A stretch of 22,995 bases of DNA from a virus. Positions 1-16,377 of the stretch are shown here, piece by piece. The stretch lies in IMG/VR virus record IMGVR_UViG_3300048586_000304, positions 1 to 22,995 of that record, one strand, 5' to 3'. A program made the position numbers and the translations under genes. The notes beneath the pieces are model-generated. The model worked only from the letters and a program-made list of their open reading frames with translations. It did no database searches and was not told where the DNA came from. Every line of letters starts with the position of its first letter. Position 1 is the first letter of the stretch.

Positions 1-614
1 TCAGCCGCCTCGCCACGATCCAGGAGCACAAGATGATCCTGCGCGCGGTCGAGCGCGGCGTATCGGAGGCTCGCATCGCGGCAGCCTTGAATGTGAACAT
101 CGCGCTGATCCGACAGAAGCGGACCCTGCTGAACGGCATCTGTCCGGAGGCAGCCGAACTGCTGAAGGCCAGGCACTGCCCGATCAACAGCTTCCGGTCC
201 CTGCGGAAGATGAAGCCCCTGCGGCAGATTCAGGCGGCGGAACTGATGATCGCGGCCAACAACTACACTGTGCCCTATGTCGAGGCGATCCTCGCAGCAT
301 CTGACGCCGCTGACCTGGTAGACCCGGCTGCAAAGAAGCCACCTGCAGGCGTAACGCGCGAACAAGCCGAGCGAATGAAGGCCGAGATGGCCAACCTGCA
401 AAAGAACATAAAGCTGATCGAAGGCACCCTTGGACCCGATCACCTCCGGCTGGTGGTGGCCGGTCGCTATGTCGAGCGGCTTTTGCAGAATGACCGTCTC
501 GCCCGCTACCTCGACAAGAACCACGGTGAAATCCTCGGCGAGTTTCGCCAGATCGTGGCGGGCCTCTTGCAGCCTGCGTCTACGACGGAAGCGAGGAGGA
601 GCGAGACCGAGTAG
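1..614 (+). CDS. RepB/ParB-like plasmid partition family protein, 5'-partial
   Basis: The frame is open from the window edge (first full codon at base 3), so the 5' end is missing; about 203 residues are visible and it ends in TAG at 612-614. The visible part matches my recollection of the RepB C-terminal partition family (Pfam RepB type): a helix-turn-helix-like stretch (GVSEARIAAALNVN), then the blocks KRTLLNGICPE, PINSFRSLRKMKPLRQI and AELMIAANNYTVPYVEAIL, then a charged helical tail. In repABC replicons RepB binds centromere-like parS sites and works with the RepA ATPase. Stand-alone and paired RepB-like genes also occur on islands and phages, where their job is unclear. It is convergent with the prophage late operon. 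The family call is good; the role here is open. The first ATG visible in frame (base 33) is internal, because the homologous sequence continues upstream of it. Confidence 0.82.
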   Translation, partial: SRLATIQEHKMILRAVERGVSEARIAAALNVNIALIRQKRTLLNGICPEAAELLKARHCPINSFRSLRKMKPLRQIQAAELMIAANNYTVPYVEAILAASDAADLVDPAAKKPPAGVTREQAERMKAEMANLQKNIKLIEGTLGPDHLRLVVAGRYVERLLQNDRLARYLDKNHGEILGEFRQIVAGLLQPASTTEARRSETE

Positions 615-14419: not shown

Positions 14420-14842
14420 TCAGGCCAGAGGGCCGGTGGTGGTGTAGTGCAGGACGACGGTGATCACCGCCGCCTTCAGCGCCGCCGCGCCCTCGACAGG
14501 CAGATCGACCGAGGCAGGGGCCTCGGGTTCCACCCAGTCACAGAGGCCGCCAAGGGTGGGGTCGGCTTCAATCGCCGCGCCGATGGCGGCGACCAAGTCG
14601 TCGAAGGCGATGGCCCGGCCGGTGCCCGCCTGGAGAAAGACCTCCAGCTCGGCCCGGTGCTGGTAGTGGTAGCGCAGGGGCGACAGGGTCACTTCCGGCT
14701 CGCCCGGCTGGCCATCGCGCAGGATGATCAGCCCGACCGCGGGGATCCGCTCGGGCAGCACCTCGTCACGCAGGGTGAGGGCGGCAAGTGGCTGCAGCCG
14801 CGCGAGCAGTGCGGCGAGGACGGTTTCGCGGGCGGTGGGCAT
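14420..14842 (-). CDS. Tail terminator protein (lambda gpU-like)
   Basis: This 140-residue alpha/beta protein has the pattern of phage tail terminators: an N-terminal helix (TARETVLAALLARLQP), strands including VGLIILRDG and the repeated basic strand YHYQHRAELEVFLQA, a long helix (AIAFDDLVAAIGAAIEADP), and a C-terminal strand AAVITVVLHYTT. Its length is near lambda gpU (131), and it sits before the tube gene as U does. The start ATG at 14842 has only a weak AAAGAA ribosome binding site. The sequence just upstream belongs to the boundary of the inserted plus-strand gene, so its native leader may have been replaced. Confidence 0.8.
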   Translation of the reverse strand: MPTARETVLAALLARLQPLAALTLRDEVLPERIPAVGLIILRDGQPGEPEVTLSPLRYHYQHRAELEVFLQAGTGRAIAFDDLVAAIGAAIEADPTLGGLCDWVEPEAPASVDLPVEGAAALKAAVITVVLHYTTTGPLA

Positions 14843-14880
14843 TTTTCTTTAGCTGGCAGACAGTGACGTGTTTGGAGGCC

Positions 14881-14896
14881 AGACCTGTGCAGGTCT
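14881..14896. promoter_or_regulatory. Palindrome upstream of the plus-strand inserted gene
   Basis: AGACCTG-TG-CAGGTCT is an inverted repeat with 7-base arms, 61 bases before the inserted gene's ATG and followed by TTCTTTATG. It could be an operator for a dimeric regulator. As RNA it gives a 6-bp hairpin with a T-rich tail, but nothing on the plus strand upstream needs terminating. A TATGCT hexamer at 14920-14925 could be a -10 element, though I find no good -35. Confidence 0.4.
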
Positions 14897-14956
14897 TTCT
14901 TTATGAAGGCATCAGCGGCTATGCTTTGCCCTTAGGTTGATCAGCGGAGCACAGGC

Positions 14957-15763
14957 ATGGGCGCAGCCAGGACAATTCGCCAAGGCAATCTCGGCAAGCG
15001 GGCGCTGAGGCTGGCGGAGAAAGACGGCAAATTCTATGGGCTTGCCGATGGCAAAGTCTGCGTGGAAGGCACCGATGCGGATCGCGTCTGGCAGCAACTG
15101 CACGACGAAGCTGGCAAATCTGATCCGAAGTATTTCGGCTACTCGGGCGCTCGAAGCCGCTTCCTGAAGTTTTTTCCGAACGGTTTTCATTCAGAGGGCT
15201 ATGCCGCGCAGGAGCGGGACTACAAGCTGGCCGCAAAGAACAAGCTGGATGCGACTGCGCCCCTGGAAATGGCGATAACCGGATCAGGATACGGCGAAGC
15301 GATCTTGTCGGTTTTTCGTGCGACAAATATGCTTTCACCTTTTGAAAAGACGCGGTTGCAGGACGTATTTCGAGGCCCAAGTTCCGATGCCGTCATTCGG
15401 GCGGCCGCTGAATTTACCGAGAATGCGGACAAGAATAGCCTTGGCCGACTCGAAGCGGCCCTCAAGCCCCATGATTGCGCCAAGTGGACGGTTGTGACCT
15501 ATCTGCCGTACCTCTGGCGCCCCGATAGACATATGTTTCTCAAGCCCGAGGTCACAAAGGACTTTGCTGCACGAGTGGGCCATCCCTTCGCGTCCAACTA
15601 CGAGGCGCGCCTGAACATTGATGTCTATGCCAGCCTGCTGGACCTTGTGGAGCGAACCAGTCGCGAACTATCTGATCTGCAGCCGCGAGACCGTATCGAT
15701 ATCCAGAGTTTCATTTGGGTGGTTGGAGACTATCAGGAAGATCGCGACGGCACCTACACCTGA
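14957..15763 (+). CDS. Unknown 268-residue protein, moron candidate inserted antisense in the tail operon
   Basis: The only plus-strand gene inside the late operon. ATG at 14957 follows a GGAG at 14945-14948. No signal peptide or membrane span is seen. Visible blocks: GKFYGLADGK (24-33), YFGYSGARSRFLKFFPNGF (59-77), QERDYK (85-90), YLPYLWRPDRHMFLKP (about 180-196) and PRDRIDIQSFIWVVGDY (243-259). The last block resembles, from memory, C-terminal segments of bacterial restriction- or defence-associated proteins, but I cannot name a family and no catalytic motif is clear. Counted 60-base lines are 43-58% GC against about 73% in a counted neighbouring line. Its end overlaps the gpZ-like gene's 3' end by 10 bases. 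These features suggest a recently acquired lysogenic-conversion gene expressed from the prophage, perhaps for superinfection defence. That role is inference. Confidence 0.82.
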   Translation: MGAARTIRQGNLGKRALRLAEKDGKFYGLADGKVCVEGTDADRVWQQLHDEAGKSDPKYFGYSGARSRFLKFFPNGFHSEGYAAQERDYKLAAKNKLDATAPLEMAITGSGYGEAILSVFRATNMLSPFEKTRLQDVFRGPSSDAVIRAAAEFTENADKNSLGRLEAALKPHDCAKWTVVTYLPYLWRPDRHMFLKPEVTKDFAARVGHPFASNYEARLNIDVYASLLDLVERTSRELSDLQPRDRIDIQSFIWVVGDYQEDRDGTYT

Positions 15764-16377
15764 TGCCACCCTGTCACGATCCGCCCCGGCACGGCGTCGA
15801 TAGCCCGCTCGGCATCGCGCGCCAGATCCAGTCGTTTGCGTAGCTTGACCTGCGGCACCAGGAGGAAGATCGGCACAGTGGTCAGACCGCGGCCGGTTTT
15901 CGCGCGGGACGCCACAGCACGGCCCTTGCTGTTCAGGCGCCCCTCGGCCACCAGCAGGCTCGGCCCCCGGCGCCGGTAGATGAAGCGCAGGCGCAGGCCG
16001 GTGCGGAGCTCCCATTCGCCGGGGGTGATACGGCCGCCACGGGTGGATTTTCCCGCCGCCGGGGTGGGGATGGCCAGCCAGAACCCACCCTTGGACCGGA
16101 TGAGCGGCCCAGCGTCATGCGCGCCGACGATCACCGGGGCATTCGACCAGACCAGCGCTGCGGCGTTCAGGCTTTTGCCACCCTTCGGATAGGTGGCCAG
16201 CCGGATCGAGTTGCCAAGCCGGGTGCCAAGGCCCGCGCCGGTGATCTGGCCGCGCCAGGCGGATTTCAGGCCCGCGCCCGCCTCGCGCATGGCGGTGGTG
16301 ACGGCCTTCTCGCCCGCAGCGATTTCCGCCTGCATCATCGCGAAGATGTCAGGATCGATGGTGAGCTTCAGTTTCAT
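15754..16377 (-). CDS. DUF6441-like / gpZ-type minor tail protein
   Basis: This 207-residue protein is in the slot of lambda gpZ, a minor protein at the head-proximal end of the tail. The N-terminal helix (MMQAEIAAGEKAVTTAMREAG), then GLKSAWRGQI, then basic beta-rich sequence (FIYRRRGPSLLVAEGRL, TVPIFLLVPQVKLRKRLDL) match the DUF6441 group once annotated as prophage minor tail protein Z. ATG at 16377 is 4 bases after the joining-protein stop, with a weak ribosome binding site that suggests coupling. The stop (TAG at 15754-15756) lies inside the last codons of the convergent plus-strand gene. Confidence 0.8.
   Translation of the reverse strand: MKLKLTIDPDIFAMMQAEIAAGEKAVTTAMREAGAGLKSAWRGQITGAGLGTRLGNSIRLATYPKGGKSLNAAALVWSNAPVIVGAHDAGPLIRSKGGFWLAIPTPAAGKSTRGGRITPGEWELRTGLRLRFIYRRRGPSLLVAEGRLNSKGRAVASRAKTGRGLTTVPIFLLVPQVKLRKRLDLARDAERAIDAVPGRIVTGWHQV

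Follow-up and report, generated by a model that had tools for sequence, protein, structure and literature searches.

A low-GC cargo gene at a tail-gene junction of alphaproteobacterial phages, probably a defence gene related to DISARM-associated and McrB-like proteins

A viral sequence of 22,995 nucleotides (IMG/VR record IMGVR_UViG_3300048586_000304, analysed over its whole length and called 'the window' below) carries a gene that is probably a prophage defence gene. It would provide, in solo form, a recognition or adaptor domain that is shared with DISARM and McrB-like systems, and it would do so from a phage hotspot: a short interval between two conserved late genes whose content varies from one phage to another.

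The ORF (14957-15763, plus strand) specifies a protein of 268 amino acids (P0001) and begins with an ATG preceded, about 9 nucleotides upstream, by GGAG. Both flanking genes are on the minus strand. On one side is the tail terminator in the gpU position (14420-14842; phrog_4204, 1.6e-41) and on the other a gene in the position of lambda Z (15754-16377; DUF6441, 3.6e-47; phrog_6367, 8e-81), which is annotated as a minor tail protein in RcC-group phages. The 3' end of the cargo gene and the stop of the DUF6441 gene overlap by 10 bp. The surrounding gene order is lambda-like: terminase, portal, S49 protease, D, E, FII-like, the Z position, the cargo gene, U-like, tube and tape measure. These ORF and flank matches confirm the preliminary description of the sequence, in which a lone plus-strand gene interrupts a lambda-order late operon at the Z/U junction. 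Its statement that the gene is poor in GC also holds (56.4%, compared with 68.0% for the window), as does the absence of integrase or transposase features, since no such match was obtained for the cargo gene. The leader (14843-14956, plus strand; 51.8% GC) includes the GGAG ribosome-binding site and a palindrome, AGACCTGTGCAGGTCT, at 14881-14896. The leader and palindrome attributed to the gene are thus present, but the palindrome, mostly retained in the closest copies, is lost in L007 and L008 and is at most a candidate operator or terminator. A search of the leader for a sigma-70-like promoter scored none. As a separate observation, a 193-amino-acid ORF (33-614, plus strand) lies in a stretch of lower GC content (about 62%) at the start of the window and is possibly another non-late gene.

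To place the gene in context, we compared two sets of loci, each assembled around 80 proteins: the best relatives of the DUF6441 protein in the first set, and proteins related to a distant tail terminator in the second. Counts for the DUF6441/tail-terminator junction are based on the 144 related IMG/VR contigs that include both flanking genes and belong to a phage group related to Rhodobacter phages; some of these are near copies of each other, and the 144 do not represent independent events. The junction is occupied by cargo in 143 of them, over 0.4-3.6 kb (median 1.1 kb). At control junctions, intervals of more than 200 bp occur in 5/87 contigs (capsid/attachment), 3/136 (attachment/DUF6441) and 8/148 (terminator/tube), or 2-6%. 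The cargo comprises 219 ORFs in 146 clusters, with 95 families of major cargo genes over the 143 loci, and is carried about equally on the plus and minus strands. Variable cargo is therefore found between two conserved phage genes, with a high turnover, a pattern of the whole phage group that was out of reach for the preliminary description. Its GC content is about 56%, compared with 68-69%: it is below that of the DUF6441 gene in 75 of 76 first-set loci (means 55.5% and 68.0%), and cargo is also the poorer in GC in every second-set locus that carries any. The window gene itself occurs in one first-set locus (L048) and in no second-set locus. The junction is empty in a single contig, L228, where only 11 bp separate the border genes; these genes overlap by 4 bp in two cultured Rhodobacter phages, RcKemmy and RcHotPocket. 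Given these empty junctions, the tight arrangement is presumably ancestral and the cargo inserted. The window gene is thus an inserted, non-essential gene that differs in composition from its surroundings (56% compared with 68% GC) and whose site is empty in some relatives, as in a moron.

The position of the gene inside the morphogenesis block might suggest a fixed structural or assembly component of the phage, an explanation that we find barely credible. The gene is on the opposite strand, its product has no PHROG match, and it is absent from 143 of the 144 contigs of the same group that contain both flanks. The corresponding interval (14843-15753 in the window) holds other cargo in 142 of these and is empty in one. 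The cargo census and the empty junctions of the two cultured relatives together refute a fixed structural role, which the preliminary description had named as an outcome that would overturn its reading.

Known defence families are included in the hotspot cargo. PADLOC matches among cargo representatives comprise viperin (pVip), PD-Lambda-2_B, AbiV, LmuB, RmrA, capP, QueC and many phage-defence-candidate (PDC) modules, the last being candidates and not proven systems. Pfam matches include Abi_C, ParDE, HNH, PIN and EndoU, together with non-defence cargo (polysaccharide lyase, globin, GNAT and DDE transposase). Such family matches, known to us as tallies, concern a minority of the cargo representatives, and most of the 95 major cargo families do not belong to a known family.

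The window gene is found at the identical site in eight other IMG/VR contigs, one of which (L002) is identical to the window, and in the genome of Oceaniovalibus sp. ACAM 378. Values of dN/dS between pairs of phage copies range from 0.05 to 0.13 (dS is saturated in distant pairs), so that the phage protein is under strong purifying selection. Together with the recurrence of the gene at the same site in the eight contigs and the Oceaniovalibus genome, this indicates that the ORF is more than a chance reading frame. In a phylogenetic tree, all phage copies form one clade (support 100/99), which is near, and not clearly sister to, a clade containing the DISARM-associated and other solo copies (99/98). 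The simplest reading of the tree would be a single capture by this phage group. A second scan of viral sequences with the family alignment revealed no distant phage copies, a tblastn search across cultured phage records found no copy of the gene, and profiles of both the solo family and the McrB-like proteins, when run over the 160 related phage loci, identified the domain in L048 only.

P0001 has no match in Pfam, PHROGs, PADLOC, NCBIfam or PDB sequence searches. No housekeeping family was matched, an outcome that the preliminary description had listed as refuting its reading. Profile hits to Dock7 and GrpE in the PDB were weak and were judged to be due to chance. The AlphaFold2 model (pLDDT 87) predicts a unit of four strands and a helix (residues 5-53) followed by an all-helical domain (residues 61-257); a Foldseek comparison of this model with PDB and BFVD returned nothing at E <= 0.001. 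Homologues are patchily distributed. With McrB-like fusions counted, they were found in 5 of 198 genomes from the family to which the prophage carrier (G001) belongs, 7 of 385 in its class, 11 of 398 in its phylum and 11 of 248 in a second family sample. One homologue from that carrier's family (L036 and L040; G025:C52:40242-41037) is broken by in-frame stops.

The first link to defence systems is provided by McrB-like proteins. The solo-family profile matches the stretch ahead of the GTPase in long McrB-like proteins, one of which matches solved McrB structures at 1e-59. When a separate alignment of eight of these pre-GTPase regions was compared with the solo family, hhalign gave a probability of 99.4% over 196 columns, the pairwise E-value not being database-calibrated. 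An HMM built from McrB-like proteins only, and containing no phage sequence, recovers the phage protein at 1.6e-15. This search is not independent of the first, because the solo profile had served to find the McrB-like regions. The homology extends over nearly the whole of the helical domain, so that P0001 resembles a subset of McrB-like proteins in which this domain precedes the GTPase. The phage protein differs from these type IV GTPases in lacking a GTPase, McrC and any known reader domain for modified bases: the AAA+ GTPase, with its GPPGTGKT and NTADRS motifs, is present in the fused relatives and absent from P0001. In McrB-like proteins the domain ends in a conserved motif, P-x-D-x-x-D-x-Q-S-F-x-W-V, and the likeness of the PRDRIDIQSFIWVV block to restriction proteins, suspected in the preliminary description, is therefore real. 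In three McrB-like loci (L155, L156 and L158), tandem pairs of GTPase genes are followed by an ORF of 446-460 amino acids at the McrC position.

The second link concerns DISARM, whose class-1 form consists of drmD, drmMI, drmA, drmB and drmC. Five homologues, 69-74% identical to the phage protein, are located between drmMI and drmA in class-1 operons (L011, L012, L013, L015 and L021). DrmMI, DrmA and DrmB surround the homologue in all five. DrmD is also present in three of them; L011 and L013 are truncated by the end of the contig, beyond which DrmD would lie. The order in L012, for example, is DrmD, DrmMI, a 379-amino-acid ORF, the homologue, DrmA and DrmB. This additional ORF (L012:8856-9992) also occurs between drmMI and the homologue in L013 and L015 and is nearly lost in L021; it has a weak match to the C-terminus of TmtA/HmaA and none in the PDB. 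Three other class-1 operons (L163, L164 and L165) include DrmD, DrmMI, DrmA and DrmB without the accessory gene, and in two of them DrmMI directly adjoins DrmA. The accessory protein is therefore an optional rather than an obligate part of DISARM. Other homologues are found just downstream of ZorD1 (L019; 2e-265), with a DrmMI-like methylase near by, adjoining PDC-S44 (L017) and upstream of a type IIG restriction enzyme (L020).

DISARM genes were found only around chromosomal and plasmid homologues. The phage locus differs in carrying no DISARM core gene, the neighbours of the window ORF being phage structural genes. Nor does the solo protein appear to depend on a DISARM system elsewhere in the genome: DrmA was found only in the five DISARM genomes and is absent from all 13 genomes with solo homologues, including the prophage carrier, although some of these may be incomplete. 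The protein is thus maintained without DISARM.

These relationships could also be explained if the phage had captured a subunit or domain of a host DISARM or McrBC-type system and used it as an anti-restriction decoy, a dominant-negative competitor that protects the phage. The phage carries the accessory subunit without drmA, drmB or drmMI, the tree places the phage and DISARM clades close together, and, since the domain occurs as a separate protein in DISARM (in trans) and as part of a fusion in McrB-like proteins (in cis), a free copy could compete. We nevertheless regard a decoy as quite unlikely. DrmA is absent from the only bacterial genome found with the prophage, as from the other solo carriers, and the order of clades in the tree does not establish capture from DISARM. 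Moreover, a gene directed against the late operon at a hotspot for defence genes fits expression from the lysogen better than early counter-defence.

It is also unlikely that the gene is an ordinary moron that affects host fitness or regulation and has nothing to do with defence. Housekeeping genes adjoin several of the chromosomal homologues, non-defence genes occur among the hotspot cargo, and a distant form from Ilyobacter bears a DUF3553 domain, all of which would suit such a role; a general fitness gene, however, would not readily account for the recurrent links with DISARM, Zorya, type IIG and McrB-like proteins. In distant solo relatives, an N-terminal unit of DUF3553/tudor type replaces the beta-rich N-terminus; it is identified with Pfam in L024:1615-2496 and by sequence likeness only in L121, L122 and L123.

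Our preferred explanation, a prophage defence gene, can be outlined as follows. The gene is one of many interchangeable cargo genes at the DUF6441/tail-terminator junction of lambda-order alphaproteobacterial (pro)phages. In the lysogen it would be expressed in the direction opposite to the late operon. Its product is the stand-alone form of a domain otherwise used as an extra DISARM gene and in front of an McrB-like GTPase. Certain residues (YK, W, P and P-D-D-Q-W) are conserved in the solo as well as the McrB-fused forms; they resemble no known catalytic set, which suggests binding rather than catalysis. In Escherichia coli McrB, methylcytosine is bound by the domain that precedes the GTPase (PMC11090510), and it is on this basis that we propose a recognition or adaptor function. 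The module may recognise foreign DNA or a phage protein, or serve as an adaptor, and is probably not an enzyme; it might be active by itself or together with a nuclease or helicase of the host. The suggestion that the gene is a moron linked to defence is well supported by the hotspot character of the site, by the defence families among its cargo and by relatives in DISARM, beside Zorya and type IIG genes and in McrB-like proteins. The housekeeping neighbours of some homologues, the non-defence cargo, the lack of family and fold matches and the failure to score a promoter count against it, as does the fact that a solo recognition domain without an effector would need a partner. A more general idea, which we put forward tentatively and consider possible though doubtful, is that prophages deploy a portable defence sensor, which McrB-like GTPases would use in cis and DISARM and other systems in trans, on its own as a one-gene immunity from a hotspot.

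Defence-gene hotspots have been described in P2, P4, Vibrionaceae and Bacillus phages (PMC9122126). As only these are named there, the hotspot in the window is apparently undescribed. Our literature search, of partial coverage, found no description of the site or of the protein family, and their novelty is to be read as 'not found' rather than as proven. The site resembles hotspots of the P2/P4 kind in its small size (about 1-5 kb), its high turnover, its position between two conserved mobile-element genes and the several defence families that it holds. It differs in phage group and site (the DUF6441/tail-terminator junction in the head-tail operon) and in carrying cargo on either strand. Similarly, the gene is like the moron genes of lambdoid phages in its own leader, opposite strand, atypical GC content and insertion between conserved late genes; here, however, different cargo is found at a single site throughout the group, and no promoter or terminator was identified for the window gene. 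The junction offers a defined site for reading out defence-gene candidates across hundreds of phage contigs, and a single unclassified domain, amenable to single-gene tests, joins DISARM, McrB-like proteins, a Zorya neighbourhood and a phage cargo gene. The eight contigs with long terminator/tube intervals (L074, L078, L079, L080, L088, L116, L204 and L225, among 148) reveal a second, rarer cargo site, between the tail-terminator and tail-tube genes, with inserts of 0.45-1.0 kb.
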